Positions 8,288 to 22,945 of a stretch of 22,945 nt of DNA are shown piece after piece. Source of the DNA: a virus; the IMG/VR virus record IMGVR_UViG_3300023184_000543, positions 1 through 22,945 of that record; one strand, written 5' to 3'. Position numbers and translations under genes: made by a program. The stretch's first letter is position 1. Each line of letters begins with the position of its first letter. Below the pieces are notes generated by a model. That model was not told where the DNA came from and ran no database searches. It worked only from the letters and a program-made list of their open reading frames with translations.

Positions 8288-8521
8288 TTATTTTTTCTGT
8301 CTTTTGTGTCTTGTTGATTGTGCAACTTCATTAGACACAATTTTGGATTGAAGAATATCAATTTCTTTTTGAATTCTTTTTTTATCTACATCAGTTAATT
8401 CAACAGCACCATTTTTGGTGTTTTTATGTTGAAGGTGAAATGTTTCTTGTAGATTATTTAATGCTACAATTCTGCGACTATTAAGTCCACAAAAATTCTG
8501 TCTGTGATTTTTTTGCTTCAT
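8288..8521 (-). CDS. Small basic protein, 77 aa
   Basis: Basic at both ends (MKQKNHRQNFCGLNSRRIVA and STRHKRQKK), with a central helix containing heptad-like Leu/Ile (KKRIQKEIDILQSKI). This suggests a nucleic-acid-binding or scaffolding protein, but no family is recognised. The leader ATTAAAAAAAAACAAGT before the ATG is A-rich. The 138 nt downstream of the stop are poly-purine on the minus strand (AAAGAAAAAAAAGAAGC) and hold no gene. Confidence 0.7.
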   Translation of the reverse strand: MKQKNHRQNFCGLNSRRIVALNNLQETFHLQHKNTKNGAVELTDVDKKRIQKEIDILQSKIVSNEVAQSTRHKRQKK

Positions 8522-8593
8522 ACTTGTTTTTTTTTAATTGTTATTTATTTTATTTATTTTAATAGTTTAATAATCTTTACTGCATCAATAGTG

Positions 8594-9110: not shown

Positions 9111-9342
9111 CTTCGGGGGTTGGTAGGAAGAATGAGGAGATATTAACTGTTGGTAAAATTGTTCTATTATCACCATACCATACACCTTCTTCAAATCCAT
9201 AATATTTAGAATGCCCTCTTGTCTCAATATGTTCTTCACTTGCAGCATTAAGTACATTATGTAAGTCTTCAAGGCTACCATTGTTTATTACCATTATTTC
9301 TCCGTTCCTAAGTTTTTCTACTAATTCTTGATTTATATTCAT
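9097..9342 (-). CDS. Conserved phage hypothetical protein, LPTVNISSFF family, 81 aa
   Basis: The layout LVEKLRNGEIMVINNGSLED near the start and RTILPTVNISSFFLP near the end belongs to a small protein family frequent in Bacteroidota phages; the function is unknown. The frame is open 8 codons further, but those codons are the conserved leader plus the coding end of the previous gene. The ATG at 9342 follows the leader ACAATTTAAAAAGAAATAAT exactly, one nucleotide after the upstream stop. Confidence 0.8.
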   Translation of the reverse strand: MNINQELVEKLRNGEIMVINNGSLEDLHNVLNAASEEHIETRGHSKYYGFEEGVWYGDNRTILPTVNISSFFLPTPEDDTR

Positions 9343-9362
9343 ATTATTTCTTTTTAAATTGT
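9340..9362 (-). repeat. Conserved start-associated leader, copy 2
   Basis: ACAATTTAAAAAGAAATAAT followed by ATG. Other copies: 11-33, 10265-10287 (one mismatch), 10521-10543 and 10704-10726, always ending in a start codon. Here it also codes for the end (QFKKK-stop) of the upstream gene. Confidence 0.85.
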
Positions 9363-9607
9363 TCAAATAATTCTTTTGTTGTATAGTATTTCATATCTAA
9401 ACCAATCCAATTATCTTTAGATGCAGTTTGAAAATCTTTGATTCTAATCCATTCAGCAAACTCAATAGCCTCACTATACATTCTTTCAGCTTGCCATTTA
9501 GCACCTGCTATAAAAGCAATTTCTGTTTGTTGTTTTTCTGCTTCACTTAAATATATTCCACCCCAAACATATATTTCAGCAGCTTCTTCTAATTCTTTTT
9601 TATTCAT
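9344..9607 (-). CDS. GAKWQxERMYSE-domain protein, paralog 1, 87 aa
   Basis: This is one of three related proteins in a row. The shared plan is an N-terminal LEEAAEIY helix, the core FIAGAKWQAERMYSE (about residues 31-46), and the C-terminal end LFEQFKKK. The family is common in Bacteroidota phages and prophages and has no known function; the core looks like an amphipathic helix with aromatic and basic residues. In this copy the usual EEEV after the core is replaced by AIEFAEWIRIKDF. The start overlaps the upstream zinc-ribbon gene by 8 nt. Confidence 0.82.
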   Translation of the reverse strand: MNKKELEEAAEIYVWGGIYLSEAEKQQTEIAFIAGAKWQAERMYSEAIEFAEWIRIKDFQTASKDNWIGLDMKYYTTKELFEQFKKK

Positions 9608-9791
9608 AATCTTCTTTATCTATAACATTAGTTTCACTTTTACAATCAAAGCACCATTCTAAAGTAGTACCTGAATCAGCAGAATAAATTTCTTCTGTAT
9701 TTACATTAACCCATTTACATCTAGCAACTTCTTCTGAACCACATTCTTTACACACTTGTAAATAAGTACTGAGTGTTTCTTGTTTATTCAT
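9600..9791 (-). CDS. Small zinc-ribbon protein, 63 aa
   Basis: Two Cys pairs, CKEC (residues 14-17) and CFDC (47-50), frame an antiparallel stretch (VARCKWVNVNTEEIYSADSG), forming a zinc ribbon. The form is familiar from small Bacteroidota phage proteins annotated only as hypothetical. Zinc ribbons of this size commonly bind nucleic acid or contact RNA polymerase, which here is inference. The gene is separated by 2 nt from the upstream stop and overlaps the downstream start by 8 nt. Confidence 0.8.
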   Translation of the reverse strand: MNKQETLSTYLQVCKECGSEEVARCKWVNVNTEEIYSADSGTTLEWCFDCKSETNVIDKEDYE

Positions 9792-9793
9792 AT

Positions 9794-10267
9794 CTATCTT
9801 TTTATGTACCTATTTAATTGTGACCATACTTCCCAAGCTCTACTATTAAAATCAGGTCTTTCTAAGCTCCAACCTGTTTCCTTAAAAGGATTAGAACAAC
9901 AATAATCTACTGTTTTATGAGGAGTTTTTACTCTAACTCTAAAATCTATCATATTACCTGTAAAAGATACTTTTTCAACTTCATAAAGAATTACTTCTCT
10001 TCTCCAGTCAAAACTGAGTAAGCATTTTAAAACAAAATCTTCTTCTTTGTTTTTAATACCCAATCTAAGCCTATTAAATTCTAACTCTTTTTGTTGTTTT
10101 TTGTTAGTAGGCTCAATAAACATAAAATTATATACAGGAAAATCTTCAAGAGTAGTTTCTTGTTTAGCTTTTTCATAATAACCTTCACCATAATTAGTTC
10201 TTGGATGATTATCTTCTATACTATCAGGAGATGGGTCTTCATTTTCAAATTCTAAATTATTATTCAT
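9794..10267 (-). CDS. Hypothetical protein, 157 aa
   Basis: I do not recognise this protein. It has an acidic disordered start (FENEDPSPDSIEDNHPRTNY), then an alpha-beta fold with a basic WRREVILYEVEKVSFTGNMI strand region, two adjacent Cys (DYCCSNPFKETGW) and a C-terminal Trp-rich helix (RAWEVWSQLNRYIKR). The ATG at 10267 directly follows the conserved leader (10265-10287, one T to C change) and is one nucleotide after the upstream stop; a longer frame to 10327 would merely read through that leader. Confidence 0.75.
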   Translation of the reverse strand: MNNNLEFENEDPSPDSIEDNHPRTNYGEGYYEKAKQETTLEDFPVYNFMFIEPTNKKQQKELEFNRLRLGIKNKEEDFVLKCLLSFDWRREVILYEVEKVSFTGNMIDFRVRVKTPHKTVDYCCSNPFKETGWSLERPDFNSRAWEVWSQLNRYIKR

Positions 10268-10287
10268 ATTATTTCTTTTTGAATTGT
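10265..10287 (-). repeat. Conserved start-associated leader, copy 3
   Basis: ACAATTCAAAAAGAAATAAT then ATG. It differs from the other copies at one base, a synonymous Phe codon change (TTT to TTC) in the overlapping end of the upstream gene. Confidence 0.82.
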
Positions 10288-10523
10288 TCAAACCAGATTT
10301 TGTTTTCTTCCATATCATTTTTATCAATATATTGATATATGAAAGTTTCTAAATATTTAGTATGGTGCTCTAATATTTCTAACACTTCTTCCTCACTATA
10401 CATTCTTTCTATTTGCCATTTAGCACCTGTTATAAAACCTAATTCAACATTAGTTTTTTCCATAAAATGTTTAGTGCCATCTTTTGTATAATTTTCAGCA
10501 GCTTCTTCAAGTGTTTCTTTCAT
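10269..10523 (-). CDS. GAKWQxERMYSE-domain protein, paralog 2, 84 aa
   Basis: The protein has the same plan as the gene at 9344: MKETLEEAAENYTKDG at the start, FITGAKWQIERMYSEEEV in the middle and WFEQFKKK at the end. The middle helix after the core (LEILEHHTKYLETFIYQYID) differs from the sister copies, so only the start, core and end are conserved. The start follows the conserved leader at 10521-10543. The function is unknown. Confidence 0.85.
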   Translation of the reverse strand: MKETLEEAAENYTKDGTKHFMEKTNVELGFITGAKWQIERMYSEEEVLEILEHHTKYLETFIYQYIDKNDMEENKIWFEQFKKK

Positions 10524-10543
10524 ATTATTTCTTTTTAAATTGT
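10521..10543 (-). repeat. Conserved start-associated leader, copy 4 (non-coding context)
   Basis: This copy is identical to copies 2 and 5 but lies after the stop of a small membrane protein, so it is not translated as part of that gene. The reading KQFKKK-stop is still present in the DNA, like a remnant of a paralog's end. It runs into the 12-bp palindrome TTGTTTAAACAA. Confidence 0.82.
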
Positions 10544-10553
10544 TTAAACAATA

Positions 10554-10706
10554 TTAATGTATTTTAGTGAATCTAAACCATCCTATAAGAAACATAAACA
10601 TCATTGGTACAGAAGGGCATTCTCTCATAATAGAATAACCATTGATACTAACTAATACTATTATACCTAACCAAAAGGGATAATACTTTAAAAACTTTTG
10701 CTTCAT
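10554..10706 (-). CDS. Small two-helix membrane protein, 50 aa
   Basis: This short gene encodes MKQKFLKYYPFWLGIIVLVS followed by INGYSIMREC, and then PSVPMMFMFLIGWFRFTKIH. There are two hydrophobic segments (FWLGIIVLVSING and MMFMFLIGWF) with positively charged ends, so both ends probably face the cytoplasm. It starts one nucleotide after the upstream stop, with the conserved leader at 10704-10726. It appears inserted between two members of the ERMYSE family. No family is recognised. Confidence 0.72.
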   Translation of the reverse strand: MKQKFLKYYPFWLGIIVLVSINGYSIMRECPSVPMMFMFLIGWFRFTKIH

Positions 10707-10726
10707 ATTATTTCTTTTTAAATTGT
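10704..10726 (-). repeat. Conserved start-associated leader, copy 5
   Basis: ACAATTTAAAAAGAAATAAT then ATG, here also coding for the QFKKK end of the 303-aa upstream gene. Confidence 0.85.
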
Positions 10727-11619
10727 TCAAACATTTTAATTGTAAAGTCTTTTATTCTGGTATATGGGATGTTAACTTTATCATTTATAGTTCTTTGTAT
10801 AAACATACCTTCTTCACAAGAGAGTTTAATTATTTCTTTGACTTCTTCCTCACTATACATTCTTTCAGCCATGTATTTAGCACCATTGATAAATGCTTTT
10901 CTTTTTTTAAAGCAATCAACATCTCTATTATAATGCCATTCAGGTTTATCTAAAGGATTTGAAGGAAATTCTCTATAAAAATTTATGGCAGCTTCTTCAA
11001 GTGTTTCTTGTTTAGGTTCTTCTAATGGACTACAATCACAATAGCTTGTATGACCACAATAACACTTAATCTGTTTAGGATCTAATGCACCCTTCAAAGA
11101 CATATAGTTTTTGGCTCTTTGTTTAGCTTCTTCTTGTGGAATGATTGGTTTGTACTTATAAATTGTTATTGTACTATAACTACTTCCAGGTTTATTATTA
11201 ATCTGTTCTTCTTCAACCTCAACTTCCTCACAACTTGGATTATTAACAAACCATTCTAAAAACTCATCATCAATACTCTGAACACCATCTTCAATTAAGT
11301 CTTGGTCTGTTGTTAGAATGATTTTACATCCTTCATCTATATAAATAAAACCCGAAGATAAAATTAAAACTTTACCATTTTTAGGGTCTATTTTACATTC
11401 TATAACTTTGTCAATATGATTAATCCAAGTTTTATCTCTATCATTTGCTATAATGTAAAAATCTTTATCTCCTTCTTTAATTTCTTCATCAGAAGTGATG
11501 TAGATGTTTTGACTACTAATAGTATTTTTACCAAAATTCAAGTCACATAAAACTAAACCTGAATTTCCTAAATGTAACCTACTTGGTTTATCTGTTGGTA
11601 TAATGTGTATATTTTTCAT
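10708..11619 (-). CDS. Two-part phage protein: KNIHIIPTDKPSRL domain fused to ERMYSE domain, 303 aa
   Basis: Residues 1 to about 165 are a family often seen in Bacteroidota phages, with MKNIHIIPTDKPSRLHLG, YITSDEEIKEGD, IILTTDQDLIEDGVQSIDDE and FLEWFVNNPSCEEVEV. A Cys-rich linker (CYCGHTSYCDC) could bind zinc. The last 100 residues repeat the family seen at 9344 and 10269: ETLEEAAINFY, FINGAKYMAERMYSEEEVKE and MFEQFKKK. It is therefore a fusion of two phage modules. Neither has a known function. It is the first gene of the cluster, following a terminator. Confidence 0.87.
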   Translation of the reverse strand: MKNIHIIPTDKPSRLHLGNSGLVLCDLNFGKNTISSQNIYITSDEEIKEGDKDFYIIANDRDKTWINHIDKVIECKIDPKNGKVLILSSGFIYIDEGCKIILTTDQDLIEDGVQSIDDEFLEWFVNNPSCEEVEVEEEQINNKPGSSYSTITIYKYKPIIPQEEAKQRAKNYMSLKGALDPKQIKCYCGHTSYCDCSPLEEPKQETLEEAAINFYREFPSNPLDKPEWHYNRDVDCFKKRKAFINGAKYMAERMYSEEEVKEIIKLSCEEGMFIQRTINDKVNIPYTRIKDFTIKMFEQFKKK

Positions 11620-16508: not shown

Positions 16509-16677
16509 AATTATAAGTTTTATAAGTTTTAATTGGGGGCAATATCACCACCAAATCAGAGTAGGGGTTCTTTGATGAAATACCCATCACACACTCAATT
16601 ACACATTAAATTTTTAATTAAAAAAAATTTTTTGTATAACACCATTGAACACATTATAAAATATTGTATATTATATT

Positions 16678-16740
16678 ATGGAACCAATATTATCTTCTAT
16701 ATGCTGTCCTGAATGTGAAGGCAGTGTTTGTTTATGTTAA
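16678..16740 (+). CDS. Possible Cys-rich micro-ORF, 20 aa
   Basis: ATG to TAA encodes MEPILSSICCPECEGSVCLC: five Cys in the last twelve residues, in a CCxxC...CxC pattern that could bind metal. It lies upstream of the late promoter and points the same way. A TTTG at 16631-16634 with TATAAAAT 20 nt later is a poor promoter match. It may be a leader peptide, a small metal-binding peptide, or chance. Confidence 0.25.
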   Translation: MEPILSSICCPECEGSVCLC

Positions 16741-16769
16741 TACATATATTAATGTATTTTAAAAATAAA

Positions 16770-16801
16770 TTTGGAAAGTTTAAACTTTCTAGATATATTT
16801 G
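16770..16801 (+). promoter_or_regulatory. Late-operon promoter (TTTG-N20-TATATTTG)
   Basis: TTTG (16770-16773) and TATATTTG (16794-16801) with a 20-nt spacer match the Bacteroidota consensus exactly. The first gene starts 20 nt downstream. No other host-type promoter is seen on the plus strand up to TerL, so this one probably drives the whole operon. Confidence 0.8.
16774..16789. promoter_or_regulatory. 16-bp perfect palindrome between -33 and -7 (probable operator)
   Basis: GAAAGTTTAAACTTTC is fully self-complementary and begins directly after the -33 TTTG. A dimeric protein bound here would block RNA polymerase, so it is a probable operator of the late operon. Confidence 0.75.
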
Positions 16802-16821: not shown

Positions 16822-17220
16822 ATGAAATCAAACAAACAAACAACAGAAACAATGGAAGCAGCACAAGAAGCTCCTAGTAAAGAAAAGGTAATGGAATGGA
16901 TGCTAGATCAAATAGCATTTAAGAAAGTTCAATTAGAATTGCAGGAGGTTGATACAAAGATTGCTGTTAGTAGATCAGAGTATATGAAAGCTATGTATAC
17001 AATAGCACAGATATCTTCTCCACAGGATTCTCCTACATTAAAGCAACACACTCTTACAGAAGAAGATATATCTGCTAATCCTGAGTTAGTTGAGCAAGGA
17101 TTTAAAGTGGGGGATGTTGTTGGTATTCCTCCTCATACAGAAGAAGAGGAAATTGAGTTTACACCAGAATCCACCACAAATTCTGCTCCATTACAAACTA
17201 CAAGAGGATTAAAAAAATAA
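16822..17220 (+). CDS. Conserved phage protein, late operon gene 1, 132 aa
   Basis: A helical, partly coiled-coil N-terminal half (EKVMEWMLDQIAFKKVQLEL, then QEVDTKIAVSRSEYMKAMYT) is followed by a Pro/Glu/Thr-rich flexible tail (PPHTEEEEIEFTPESTTNSA). I associate this form with proteins near the packaging genes of crAss-like and related Bacteroidota phages; its function is unknown to me. It is the first gene after the late promoter and is 4 nt from the next. Confidence 0.8.
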   Translation: MKSNKQTTETMEAAQEAPSKEKVMEWMLDQIAFKKVQLELQEVDTKIAVSRSEYMKAMYTIAQISSPQDSPTLKQHTLTEEDISANPELVEQGFKVGDVVGIPPHTEEEEIEFTPESTTNSAPLQTTRGLKK

Positions 17221-17969: not shown

Positions 17970-18258
17970 AAAACAGATTTTAGAAGGAATAAAAAATAAC
18001 ATTTTTAAAAAAGATCATGTTGAGGTTATTGCAAATGGTAGATTAAACATTTGTAAATCTTGTGATAATTATACTACGGGAGATGCTGGTTGCATAGTGG
18101 TAGGAACCAGCCCCTGCTGTAATAAATTAACAGGTGGTTGTGGATGTAGTTTGTCATTAAAAACAAGAGCATTAAGTTCAGGATGTCCTCTTCCTATTCC
18201 TAAATGGAAAGCTATTTTAACAGAAAAAGAAGAAGATATATTAAACCAACAATTATAA
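17944..18258 (+). CDS. Cys-rich zinc-binding phage protein, 104 aa
   Basis: After a basic N-terminal helix (QNRKQILEGIKNNIFKKDHV) comes a Cys cluster: ICKSCDNYTTGDAGC, SPCCNKL and GGCGCSL, then a final SGCPLP. Eight Cys in CxxC, CC and CxC groups suggest one or two zinc sites. This form is common in Bacteroidota phages near the terminase; its function is unknown. The start at 17944 is chosen over 17893 because of better leader and smaller overlap. The next gene starts 2 nt after its stop. Confidence 0.82.
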   Translation: MLNQIFQNRKQILEGIKNNIFKKDHVEVIANGRLNICKSCDNYTTGDAGCIVVGTSPCCNKLTGGCGCSLSLKTRALSSGCPLPIPKWKAILTEKEEDILNQQL

Positions 18259-18260
18259 TT

Positions 18261-19100
18261 ATGGCATTACAATTTAAACCAGAGTTTCATAAATATACTT
18301 CTATAGATGAAGAAGAAGCTATAGAATGGACTTCAGTGACAAGTTTTATTTCTAAATTTAAAGCTCCATTTGATGCAGATAAAATTGCAGCAAAAGTAAC
18401 AAAGTCCAAAAAGTCCAAATGGTATGGAATGGATGTTGAAGAGATAAAGAATATTTGGAAAAATGAATCTAAAAGAGCTACAGATTTAGGAACATGGTAT
18501 CACAACCAAAGAGAGTCTGATCTTTGTGGATTGAATTCAATAAGAAGAGAAGGGGTGGATGTTTCTATATATATTCCTAATGTAGATTTAGATGGTACTA
18601 AAACAGCACCAGATCAAAAGTTAGTAGAAGGTATTTATCCTGAACATATGGTTTATTTAAAATCTGCTCAATTATGTGGTCAATCTGATTATGTAGAAGT
18701 GGTTAATAAGAAGGTTAATATTATAGATTATAAAACTAATAAAGAAATAAAATTAGAATCTTTTACATCATGGGATGGTGTTAGTCAGAAAATGTTACCT
18801 CCACTTCAACATTTAGATGATTGTAATTTTAATCATTATGCACTACAATTGAGTGTTTATATGTATATTATTATTAAGCACAATCCATTATATAAACCTG
18901 GAACATTAACACTTCAGCATGTTATATTTGAAAAATCTGGTGAGGATAAGTATGGTAATCCAGTGACAGCAATAGACAATGATGGTAATCCTATTGTAAA
19001 AGAAGTTGTACAATACACTGTACCTTATTTAAAAGATGAAGTAGTAACACTTATTAAATATTTAAAAGATGAACAAAATAAATGTAAAAACAATCATTAA
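18261..19100 (+). CDS. RecB/Cas4-like PD-(D/E)XK nuclease, 279 aa
   Basis: Motifs in order: GTWYHNQRES with His81 (motif I of the RecB-like family), LCGQSDYVEVVN with Asp143, NIIDYKTNK with Asp156 and Lys158 (the D/E-x-K pair), and the closing YALQLSVYMYII (motif QxxxY). This is a full-length member of the PD-(D/E)XK exonuclease group that includes lambda exonuclease-like and Cas4-like enzymes; it probably processes DNA ends for recombination or packaging. The start at 18261 sits 2 nt after the upstream stop with an A-rich leader (AATTATAATT). Confidence 0.88.
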   Translation: MALQFKPEFHKYTSIDEEEAIEWTSVTSFISKFKAPFDADKIAAKVTKSKKSKWYGMDVEEIKNIWKNESKRATDLGTWYHNQRESDLCGLNSIRREGVDVSIYIPNVDLDGTKTAPDQKLVEGIYPEHMVYLKSAQLCGQSDYVEVVNKKVNIIDYKTNKEIKLESFTSWDGVSQKMLPPLQHLDDCNFNHYALQLSVYMYIIIKHNPLYKPGTLTLQHVIFEKSGEDKYGNPVTAIDNDGNPIVKEVVQYTVPYLKDEVVTLIKYLKDEQNKCKNNH

Positions 19101-20319: not shown

Positions 20320-20501
20320 TAAAAGATGAATATTTACAACAATGGATGTTTCACTTCAACCCTTACACTAGAGTATGGAGTGGATTTCATAGAGACAACT
20401 ATGTCAAATATCTTAACGGAGTGGGAGGATCCAACATTTACTCAGCTCCCAGTATGGACAAACTCCTTAGATACATAAAATCAAAACATGCAACAACATA
20501 A
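20313..20501 (+). CDS. Conserved small phage protein, 62 aa
   Basis: The aromatic, basic protein begins MVVKDEYLQQWMFHFNPYTR, followed by VWSGFHRDNYVKYLNG and a C-terminal helix (MDKLLRYIKSKHATT). I have a sense of this form next to terminase genes in Bacteroidota phages; the function is unknown. It overlaps the GroES-like gene by 7 nt and TerL by 14 nt, so it is locked into the packaging operon. Confidence 0.75.
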   Translation: MVVKDEYLQQWMFHFNPYTRVWSGFHRDNYVKYLNGVGGSNIYSAPSMDKLLRYIKSKHATT

Positions 20502-22945
20502 AATAGAAAATAATTATTATATTCAAATCCCTACATTTGAAAACAACATTTGGACAACCACAGTTTTTAATACAAGAGATGAATATAAAGAATTTGTAAA
20601 TTCTATTTTTATTGATGCAGGTCCTGATAAAGGATATGGGTTTGATGAAATGAGTTTTGAATTTAATAGTGAAGCTAGAAAATTTCAAAAACAAGGATAT
20701 TATACTAATGTACCTTTTAGGTCAAAGGATTATGTATTGTATTGGGATGACCAAAAAAACAAATGTAAGAATGGTGTAATCTTTAAGAATAAAGGTAAAA
20801 CATGGTATCTCACTAGAGATTATTATATGTGGTTGAATTTTCTTCCTATTTATGATAAGGAAGAAAAAAGATTTGACTTTGCTAAAGTGAGGGATGCTCA
20901 ATATCATATGGCATTATATGAATGGAAGGCAGAACTTAATTATAAACATTGTCCTATATTAAAAAAACGTCAGATAGCTAGTTCCTATTTTCATATGGGT
21001 AAACTAATAAATGCTTATTGGTTTGAAGAAGGATCTGTAAATAAAATAGGAGCTAGTCTTAAAGACTACATTTCTGAGAAAGGATCTTGGAGGATGTTAA
21101 ATGAATATAGGAATTTCTTAAATGAGCACACTGCATGGTATAGACCATCAGAACCAGATAAGATATTTTCATGGCAACAAAGGATTAAAGTGAGAATTGG
21201 TGGTCGTGATACATACAAAGGAAATAAATCCATCATCACTGGTACATCATTTGAGAAAGATCCAACTAATGGTGTTGGAGGGCCCTGTCATACAAAAGAC
21301 ACTTTAATATGTATGAGTGATGGGTCATTAAAAAAAATTCAAGAAATTAAAATAAATGATTTAGTATGTGGTTTTGATGGCTACCCTAAAAAAGTATTAA
21401 AGTTATTTAATGGATCATCTGATATTTATAGAGTAGAACAGAGTAAAGGAATCACTTATAATGTAACAGGAGAACATAAATTATTATTATGGGAAAAAAA
21501 TAAAAATGATTATAGGATTATTAAAACTGAAGAGTTTAATAATTTATCAAAAGACAGGAAAAGATTTTTAAAAGGAATAAAGTTTAAAGGTTTAATTGGT
21601 GAAGAAAAAAATCTTTCTATAGATCCTTATTATTTAGGATTGTATTTAGGTGACGGTTGTAAATATGATTTTACTATTTTAGTAAATAAAACAAAAGATA
21701 TAGAAATATGGGAATGGCTTGAAAAAAAATCTTTAGAGTTAAATATTCCTTTGTGTAAAAAAAATAAAAATTTATATAGAACAGATTATAATGATTCTAT
21801 GTGGGAAGGACATTTTGGTACAAGAAACCTTACTAAAAGAGAAAGAGATGATTCTTATAAAACAAAAATGTTAGAATTAGGACTGAAAAATAAACATATT
21901 CCTGATGTTTATTTTCAATCATCTAAACAACAAAGATTAAATCTTTTAGCTGGTATTTTGGATACAGACGGTTATTTAAATCATAAAAAAAATCGTTTTG
22001 AAATAACATTACATAATGAACAACTTGCTAATGATTTACAACATTTATGTATTTTAACAGGATTTGATGCTCATAAACACATTGTTGAATCTGATAATAT
22101 AAAATCAACTGTAGTAAATAGTATAACTAAAGGATGGAGAATAAATATTACGGGTAATATAACAGATATTCCTACTAAAATTAAAAGGAAACAAGCATTA
22201 AAAAACGGTATTAAAAATAAAAACAGATATAGTAATATTACTGTAACACTTAATGGTATTGATGAATATTTTGGTTTTGAATGTGAAGATAATTTATATG
22301 TTTTAGAAGATGGTACTACCACTCATAATTGTACTTATTTCTTTCATGAGGAAGCAGGTATTGCTCCTAAGATGATGGACACATATGAGTTTATGAGACC
22401 TGCCTTACAATCTGGTATGGTGACTACAGGAACATTTATTGCTGCTGGATCTGTGGGTGATTTAGATCAATGTATTCCTCTAAAAGAAATGATCTTGTAT
22501 CCCCACAAATTTAGCATGCAAGCTGTCACTACAGATTTATTAGATGGTAATAAGACAATAGGTGAAACAGGACTTTTTATTCCTGAACAATGGAGTATGC
22601 CACCTTATATAGATGCATTTGGAAATTCTTTAGTGAATGAAGCTTTAGAAGCAATTTATGAAGAACGTAAACAATGGAAAAAAGATCTTAGTCCAGAACA
22701 ATACCAGCTACGTATATCTCAAAAACCAACTAACATTGAAGAAGCTTTTGCTACAAGAAAAGAATCTGTATTTCCACCACATTTAATATCACATCAACTT
22801 AAACGTATAGAAGATGGAGAATATCCAGTTGAATATGTTACATTATCTATAGGAGAAGACAATGGTAAAATCATTGCTACAAAAACTAATAAGAGTCCAA
22901 TAAAGAAATTCCCTATAGATAAAACTATGGAAGATAAGTCTGGAG
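20488..22945 (+). CDS. terL: Terminase large subunit (TerL) interrupted by an intein, 3' end outside window
   Basis: The motor of DNA packaging. The N-terminal extein (266 aa) has the crAss-like TerL features LTRDYYMWLNFLPIY and KKRQIASSYFHMGK (Walker A-like), with WFEEGS and GASLKDYISEKGSW after it. The C-extein starts CTYFFHEEAG, whose FHEE is Walker B plus the catalytic Glu, and continues APKMMDTYEFMRPAL and TTGTFIAAGSVGDLDQ (coupling motif region). No stop occurs before the window ends, so the nuclease domain lies outside. The 348-aa intein at 21286-22329 must splice out for activity. The start overlaps the previous gene by 14 nt. Confidence 0.92.
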   Translation, partial: MQQHKIENNYYIQIPTFENNIWTTTVFNTRDEYKEFVNSIFIDAGPDKGYGFDEMSFEFNSEARKFQKQGYYTNVPFRSKDYVLYWDDQKNKCKNGVIFKNKGKTWYLTRDYYMWLNFLPIYDKEEKRFDFAKVRDAQYHMALYEWKAELNYKHCPILKKRQIASSYFHMGKLINAYWFEEGSVNKIGASLKDYISEKGSWRMLNEYRNFLNEHTAWYRPSEPDKIFSWQQRIKVRIGGRDTYKGNKSIITGTSFEKDPTNGVGGPCHTKDTLICMSDGSLKKIQEIKINDLVCGFDGYPKKVLKLFNGSSDIYRVEQSKGITYNVTGEHKLLLWEKNKNDYRIIKTEEFNNLSKDRKRFLKGIKFKGLIGEEKNLSIDPYYLGLYLGDGCKYDFTILVNKTKDIEIWEWLEKKSLELNIPLCKKNKNLYRTDYNDSMWEGHFGTRNLTKRERDDSYKTKMLELGLKNKHIPDVYFQSSKQQRLNLLAGILDTDGYLNHKKNRFEITLHNEQLANDLQHLCILTGFDAHKHIVESDNIKSTVVNSITKGWRINITGNITDIPTKIKRKQALKNGIKNKNRYSNITVTLNGIDEYFGFECEDNLYVLEDGTTTHNCTYFFHEEAGIAPKMMDTYEFMRPALQSGMVTTGTFIAAGSVGDLDQCIPLKEMILYPHKFSMQAVTTDLLDGNKTIGETGLFIPEQWSMPPYIDAFGNSLVNEALEAIYEERKQWKKDLSPEQYQLRISQKPTNIEEAFATRKESVFPPHLISHQLKRIEDGEYPVEYVTLSIGEDNGKIIATKTNKSPIKKFPIDKTMEDKSG
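21286..22329 (+). mobile_element. LAGLIDADG (DOD) intein in TerL, 348 aa
   Basis: Splicing and endonuclease blocks are intact. Block A begins CHTKDTLICMSDGSLKKIQE. Block B is ITYNVTGEHKLLLW (TxxH). Endonuclease blocks C and E are LGLYLGDGC and LLAGILDTDGYL, each with its acidic residue, and block D is NKHIPDVYF. Block F is EYFGFECEDNLYVL, and block G ends EDGTTTHN followed by Cys+1. It starts with Cys and ends in His-Asn, so it is a class 1 intein. The joined host sequence is GVGGP-CTYFFHEEAG, so it sits right before Walker B. Its length is that of a full-size intein. Confidence 0.93.

Follow-up and report, generated by a model that had tools for sequence, protein, structure and literature searches.

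A conserved direct-repeat element ahead of the packaging operon, a candidate late promoter of an uncultured Crassvirales lineage

In an uncultured lineage of Crassvirales, the packaging operon is preceded by a conserved DNA element, in which two repeats of the type TTTAAAY lie in the same orientation and at a fixed distance from each other, ahead of a -7 box of the host type. The element probably acts as a promoter and has a dedicated site. A more far-reaching reading, which we regard as evenly balanced, is that it represents the late promoter of this presumably mostly aquatic lineage, which would be used by the host polymerase and carry a two-part activator site with OrfB, the product of the second operon gene, as the likeliest binder. 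The analysis started from a virus fragment of 22,945 bases, called the window in the following, which is the whole stretch of DNA that was analysed. An earlier note on the window had proposed a palindromic operator; the site is now read instead as a probable late promoter of an uncultured crassviral lineage, in which the conserved part is a direct repeat.

Crassvirales rank with the most abundant phages of the gut. According to the available parts of PMC10136315, they carry a virion RNA polymerase, to which the early genes are attributed, and the late genes are probably transcribed by the host RNAP; the same division was given for crAss001 in the available parts of PMC8375218. In these parts of the two papers neither a late promoter nor a late regulator of Crassvirales is named, and our literature search on crassviral late promoters and on the motif of the element found no paper on either among the entries listed. 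The primary-sigma promoter of Bacteroidetes consists of TTTG and TAHHTTTG, and in F. johnsoniae transcription starts 4-5 nt past the -7 box (available part of PMC6847099).

A match to this promoter, TTTG-N20-TATATTTG, spans positions 16770-16801 of the window, with TTTG at 16770-16773 and a spacer of 20 nt, and a further 20 nt separate the end of TATATTTG from the ATG of the packaging operon at 16822. The perfect 16-bp palindrome GAAAGTTTAAACTTTC lies in the spacer exactly where the earlier note had placed it. The proposed search of the rest of the genome, done on the 22,945-base record, found no other exact copy. The operon runs rightward in the order orfA, orfB, orfC, a small ORF, a PD-(D/E)XK exonuclease and, farther on, the large terminase, with leftward genes on the opposite side of the element. 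Labels such as SSB and IHF/HU were assigned by eye. The features are:

16766 to 16773, plus strand: T1, the upstream repeat TAAATTTG (TAAAT at about -40 to -36), overlapping the -33 TTTG; based on the T1 phase and the TTTG counts
16774 to 16789, no strand: perfect 16-bp palindrome GAAAGTTTAAACTTTC, found without mismatch in 3 of the 42 unique seeded elements
16778 to 16787, plus strand: T2, the conserved repeat RTTTAAACTT (about -28 to -19); based on the counts in unique seeded elements
16794 to 16801, plus strand: -7 box TATATTTG of the Bacteroidetes primary sigma (host) type, by the TAHHTTTG consensus (available part of PMC6847099)
16806 to 16807, plus strand: putative transcription start, 4-5 nt past the -7 box by the F. 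johnsoniae rule (available part of PMC6847099)
16822 to 17220, plus strand: orfA, first operon gene, 132 aa
17225 to 17593, plus strand: orfB, second operon gene, predicted winged-helix protein of 122 aa and candidate binder; based on an AlphaFold model, a structure match and invariant helix residues
17580 to 17969, plus strand: orfC, called IHF/HU-like by eye alone, without a match in Pfam or PHROG
18204 to 19100, plus strand: PD-(D/E)XK-type exonuclease (phrog_298, 2.2e-23), matching exonucleases of named Crassvirales
20488 to 22944, plus strand: large terminase with intein (phrog_6681; Hom_end_hint and LAGLIDADG), truncated by the end of the window

Taken alone, the palindrome lacks significance, and so does the promoter match. 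Two perfect palindromes of at least 16 bp were seen in the window, the other one being TATCAATATATTGATA at 10322, compared with a shuffle mean of 1.15 (n=40), and 12 of the 40 shuffles reached two; since about one is expected by length in such AT-rich DNA, a perfect 16-bp palindrome is unremarkable. The pattern TTTG-N18..22-TANNTTTG occurs three times, with 1.97 expected. A looser 38-bp dyad with the same centre as the palindrome, in which 16 of 19 pairs agree, is the best of the window, and 9 of 300 shuffles reach it. Hence, the significance of the site comes from the comparison with relatives, in which the surrounding element is kept wherever the upstream sequence suffices, whereas the palindrome is not.

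Some other features of the window deserve mention. Directly upstream of the element lies a Cys-rich micro-ORF, MEPILSSICCPECEGSVCLC (16678-16740, plus strand), and similar micro-ORFs of 20-24 aa (CPxCEG..CLC) occupy the same place in L006/L008/L009, L011 and L020/L022; the product is possibly a zinc-binding microprotein. The block AAAGAACCCCTACTCTG (16555-16571, minus strand) is found upstream of a leftward 100-aa gene, its core GAACCCCTACTCTG recurs unchanged in L003 and L011, and it might serve as an early promoter or as a signal in a leader. Furthermore, a 34-nt leader with start codon (the reverse complement of TTCATATTATTTCTTTTTAAATTGTT) is repeated before several leftward ORFs at 9331-10728 and also occurs at 2-35 and 8510-8543.

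For the comparison, an exonuclease-seeded search of IMG/VR gave 80 loci, 70 of which have at least 250 nt upstream of orfB. The 42 unique seeded elements provide the unbiased counts, since further loci were fetched by a pattern for the right half of the element. A larger set comprises 112 unique elements: 177 loci with orfB were reduced to 171 with 250 nt upstream and to 118 unique elements, from which L023, L027, L066, L082 and L177 (score below 11) and L185 (best match misplaced) were dropped. Several of the loci overlap, being pieces of one contig. It must be mentioned that T2 and the -7 box served for finding and aligning the elements, which makes their own conservation partly a matter of construction, while the score took no account of T1, of the purine that precedes T2, of the TT that follows TTTAAAC or of the closing TG in the -7 box.

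The element stands at the front of the operon in 66 of the 70 seeded loci, and the four loci without it (L023, L027, L066 and L082) offer just 296-381 nt of upstream sequence. Apart from L026, all 66 score at least 12, a value reached by 0 of 210 Markov-shuffled regions. In the relatives, T1 reads TAAA[CT], T2 reads [AG]TTTAAACTT and lies 15 bp downstream of T1, and the -7 box lies about 15 bp past T2. Among the 42 unique seeded elements TTTAAAC is present in 41 and TTTAAACTT in 36, both belonging to T2 and thus to the alignment anchor; the T1 sequence TAAA[CT] was found in 41 and the purine before T2 in all 42. According to the F. johnsoniae numbering scheme (T-12 to G-5; available part of PMC6847099), T2 covers about -28 to -19 and T1, as TTTAAAY, about -42 to -36.

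The palindrome behaves differently. In the 42 unique seeded elements the perfect symmetry extends over 6 bp in 23 cases, 8 bp in nine, 10 bp in six, 14 bp in one and 16 bp in three, and the exact 16-mer was found in the species of the window and in L006-L009, with 72% exonuclease identity. The sister locus L011, which falls inside the clade of the window, retains GTTTAAAC and lacks the palindrome arms. In general, the left arm varies freely and GTTTAAACTT is retained together with the -7 box. Mapped on an exonuclease tree with 103 rows, the symmetry of 14-16 bp requires three changes. Moreover, dyad pairs beyond TTTAAA are about as frequent in the 112 unique elements as independent columns predict. 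The pairing over all 112 is slightly elevated (0.445 versus 0.415 when columns are shuffled, with 6 of 2000 shuffles as high), which we read as relatedness, because 193 of 2000 shuffles were as high for the outer pairs of 45 cluster representatives (0.471 versus 0.446). By eye, the outer bases of L011 are altered on both sides and 7 of 8 pairs are still symmetric, a single case that was not counted. Dyad symmetry shared by orthologous sites, as in a dimeric palindromic operator, was thus not found among these elements, and the palindrome was rejected as the conserved operator unit; it is the variant of the T2 left flank in the lineage of the window. The earlier note had itself named a palindrome lost from relatives that keep the promoter as the outcome that would speak against a regulator site there, and this is what was found. 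Its broader proposal of a regulatory site in the promoter spacer holds insofar as a conserved element is located there, yet the conserved unit is the direct repeat. A conserved direct repeat may hence pass for a palindrome in one genome.

The symmetry also bears on the assumption of a hairpin promoter for the virion RNA polymerase, as known from phage N4, which we consider most improbable. The window strand does fold into an 11-bp hairpin (z -4.1) and Crassvirales carry a virion polymerase (available part of PMC10136315), but the symmetry is lost in most relatives, and the late genes are attributed to the host RNAP in the same source. A conserved stem of the N4 type was not found in the aligned elements, the long symmetry being confined to the palindromic lineages.

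What is conserved instead is the phase of the two repeats. TAAAY occurs exactly 13 nt ahead of TTTAAAC in 103 of the 112 unique elements, in the same orientation and with the repeats 15 bp apart; over the range searched, TAAAY was seen at no other phase to T2, and it was undetected in the other nine. Correspondingly, the base agreement of T1 and T2 across the 112 elements is 0.864 at a shift of 15 bp, compared with 0.551 at 14 and 0.560 at 16. TAHHTTTG was found 14-17 nt from the start of T2 in 105 of 112 elements (14 nt in two, 15 nt in 82, 16 nt in 13 and 17 nt in eight), and not found within the searched distance in seven; the full TAnnTTTG is present in 97 of 112. The T1-T2 spacing is therefore held tighter than the distance of either repeat to the -7 box. 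As the phase of T1 and T2 is constant while the position of the -7 box varies, the arrangement points to one factor spanning both repeats, apart from the sigma contact.

The second peculiarity is the missing -33 box. The TTTG at -33, which the earlier note had included in its promoter match, turned out to be lineage-specific, present in 17 of the 112 unique elements including the window and absent in 95. A good -7 box without -33 box, as seen in most elements, would be the layout of an activator-dependent promoter, and the clade of the window, which has the -33 TTTG, may depend less on the factor. A hairpin of 11 bp with a subsequent T run, resembling a terminator, ends just before T1 in L053 and L079. 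In L017 and L020 hairpin and T run are located farther upstream, and the window has a weak one only.

An additional blind scan used the pattern TTTAAACTT-N5..8-TATATTTG, which does not include T1, and returned at least 120 stretches, of which 80 were examined. Among these listed matches, 59 of 80 sites precede the operon genes. Where the locus contains orfB, 54 of 59 sites have T1, four lack it and one is unreadable; where orfB is missing, T1 was found at 0 of 16 sites, and where less than 400 nt of downstream sequence is available, at four of five, again among the matches listed. This distribution speaks against the view that T1 and T2 are just AT-rich upstream contacts of the host RNA polymerase, in which case the promoter would be constitutive and its timing set elsewhere. 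In favour of such contacts, AT-rich motifs near -18 and -28 are stronger than any -33 motif in F. johnsoniae promoters, as stated in the available part of PMC6847099, and they overlap T2; in addition, no Sigma70_r2 or r4_2 Pfam match was found in six records, where a divergent sigma could escape both models. But the column with the highest information is the C of TTTAAAC (2.65 bits, in an alignment anchored on T2), which is no AT-rich signal, and the T1-T2 phase is rigid although the distance from T2 to the -7 box is not. Hence, we regard this explanation as unlikely.

If a phage protein binds the two repeats as one unit, the best candidate within the window is OrfB. The earlier note had listed HTH, winged-helix and ParB-like proteins as candidates, among which the winged-helix protein, i.e. 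OrfB, remains the best and the ParB-like one is disfavoured. In blastp of the window ORFs, orfB is the sole regulator-like one common to G001, G004, G005 and G006, four relatives whose records are possibly incomplete. The ParB-like protein was found in G004 and G005 and not in the element-bearing G001 and G006, and for the remaining two HTH-like ORFs (463-1218 and 1894-2130 of the window) none of the four gave a match.

OrfB is predicted to have a winged-helix fold with recognition helix and wing. Its AlphaFold model (pLDDT 89.5) contains a helix at residues 70-82 followed by strands at 86-89 and 95-98, and the alignment of 83 sequences (window plus 82 homologues) shows Q22, L45, C58, Q71, R74, N75 and K79 as invariant, of which Q71, R74, N75 and K79 are all placed in this helix by the model. 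The top structural match of the model is the Zur-DNA complex 4mtd (Z 11.4, rmsd 2.4, 89 residues aligned), and BlaI, MecI, Fur and MarR types follow. In a Foldseek comparison with solved structures the best E-value was 0.019 and none was below 0.001; at the sequence level, there was no Pfam match above cut-off, and the best PDB profile match was MecI with an E-value of 0.092. The invariant contact-type residues and the adjoining invariant DNA element fit a protein-operator pair by association only, because the operon moves as one. Other binders, orfC or genes beyond the window, are possible, and our confidence in OrfB as the binder stays slightly short of even.

Regarding the direction of control, we rather favour activation. 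Alternatively, the late operon could be held off by a dimeric repressor or autorepressor bound to T2 or to the palindrome: a protein in the spacer would block the polymerase, RTTTAAAY itself is nearly symmetric, and the nearest folds of OrfB include the repressors Zur, BlaI and MecI. However, the palindrome is not conserved, and a repressor needs neither a fixed phase of T1 nor the loss of the -33 box, which leaves repression with a low probability in our view. Only the absence of a -33 box and the constancy of the geometry distinguish activator from repressor, and the distance from T2 to the -7 box varies by 3 nt.

The copy number of the element agrees with one site in each genome. A single copy of the core TTTAAAC-N7..9-TANNTTTG is present in each of G001 (109 kb), G004 (118 kb), G006 (104 kb), G002 and the window, with 0 to 0.2 expected. 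In G005 the core pattern gives 0 sites, and the combined profile of T1, T2 and -7 box gives one clear site far above the next. No second full element above shuffle level was found by this profile in G004, G005 and G006. For the window and G001 the second-best match is the site itself read in reverse. The next one reaches 1.5 in the window, where shuffles go up to -1.4, and 6.0 in G001, where they go up to 4.4; both values are far below the 5% training score of 16.9. A T1T2-only match without -7 box was noticed at 93956 of G001 (L092:13956), with a score of 19.5 versus shuffled maxima of 12.0-17.2.

A single-copy core (G001, G004, G006 and window) next to the terminase operon might also be a replication origin, a pac site or another DNA signal without promoter function, particularly as it adjoins the turn of the GC skew in G001 and the window. 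These two have the element where the late arm begins; in G001 it is found at 99.6 kb with the skew minimum at 100.5 kb, near the arm junction. But element and minimum are 18-19 kb apart in G004 (77.5 and 95.6 kb) and G006 (73.3 and 92.5 kb). This distance disfavours a reading as origin or arm switch, and the suggestion of the earlier note that the site is the main switch between the two arms is less likely, since the element is not always at the junction. Moreover, its host-type -7 box and near-constant place upstream of the operon, in L053 and L079 directly past the terminator-like hairpin, argue against a mere DNA signal, which we consider very unlikely.

The relatives of the window are Crassvirales. 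G004 encodes the crassviral major capsid protein (PF23898, 1.6e-31), the muzzle (PF25731, 1.4e-20), the portal (phrog_6547) and the terminase (phrog_6681), the last of which is also found in the window. The exonuclease shares at most 28% identity with named gut Crassvirales among the crassviral matches listed, indicating distant kin, and tblastn with OrfB against 50,697 phage records gave zero matches. The core element is absent from five named crassviral or crass-like records (phi14:2, R. jaberico, crAss001, cr8_1 and MT835470), hence it is no rule for the whole order. Two genes at the start of the late arm of Rudgehvirus jaberico were considered as OrfB and failed the OrfB profile. A D.DGD search in the ORFs of three relatives returned one 169-aa ORF only, and the virion polymerase was not located there. 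Among GTDB contigs, three loci (L237, L238 and L239) encode OrfB relatives, and both contigs having upstream sequence carry the element, T1 reading CAAAC in L237. The three contigs have been assigned to MAGs of other phyla, with the labels Campylobacteraceae and Pseudomonadales, probably through mis-binning of phage. The habitat of the lineage is presumably mostly aquatic.

Taking these lines together, the late promoter could work as follows. The host RNA polymerase with its primary sigma factor would use the -7 box TATATTTG, while T1 (TTTAAAY) and T2 (RTTTAAACTT) would cover the -33 region in place of TTTG, or overlapping TTTG in the clade of the window. A phage protein would bind T1 and T2 as one unit and recruit the polymerase, and the packaging operon would be turned on as this protein accumulates. 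With OrfB, encoded second in the operon, as the likeliest binder, positive autoregulation would result. As a tentative and somewhat doubtful extension, OrfB might be the late-gene activator of the lineage, which binds TTTAAAY-N8-RTTTAAACTT at about one site per genome, replaces the -33 sigma contact and passes transcription from the virion polymerase to the host polymerase. If true, this would be the first promoter and regulator pair proposed for the late switch of Crassvirales, as far as the literature was searched. An element with single-copy core and one adjoining DNA-binding candidate reduces the question of the late switch to one protein and a 60-bp probe.

Compared with known systems, the closest late modules are those of crAss001 and phi14:2, which also contain terminase and virion proteins and are attributed to the host RNAP in the available parts of the publications mentioned above, whereas both records lack the core TTTAAAC-N7..9-TANNTTTG. 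The -7 box matches the primary-sigma promoter of Bacteroidetes, to which the window adds TTTG at the 20-nt spacer; in contrast to that promoter, most relatives are without TTTG and a rigid TTTAAAY/TTTAAACTT pair fills the upstream region. The middle promoters of phage T4 likewise combine a good -10/-7 box with a site for a phage protein, MotA, which replaces the -35 box. MotA uses one box near -30, whereas two phased repeats are present here. Finally, the CII-activated promoters of phage lambda, also read by the host polymerase, show two same-direction repeats astride the -35/-33 region, and T1 and T2 are arranged in the same manner, in one orientation, 15 bp apart and astride -33. The repeats of the CII promoters read TTGC and are spaced by 10 bp, while those described here read TTTAAAY with a spacing of 15 bp, and their candidate binder is a predicted winged helix.
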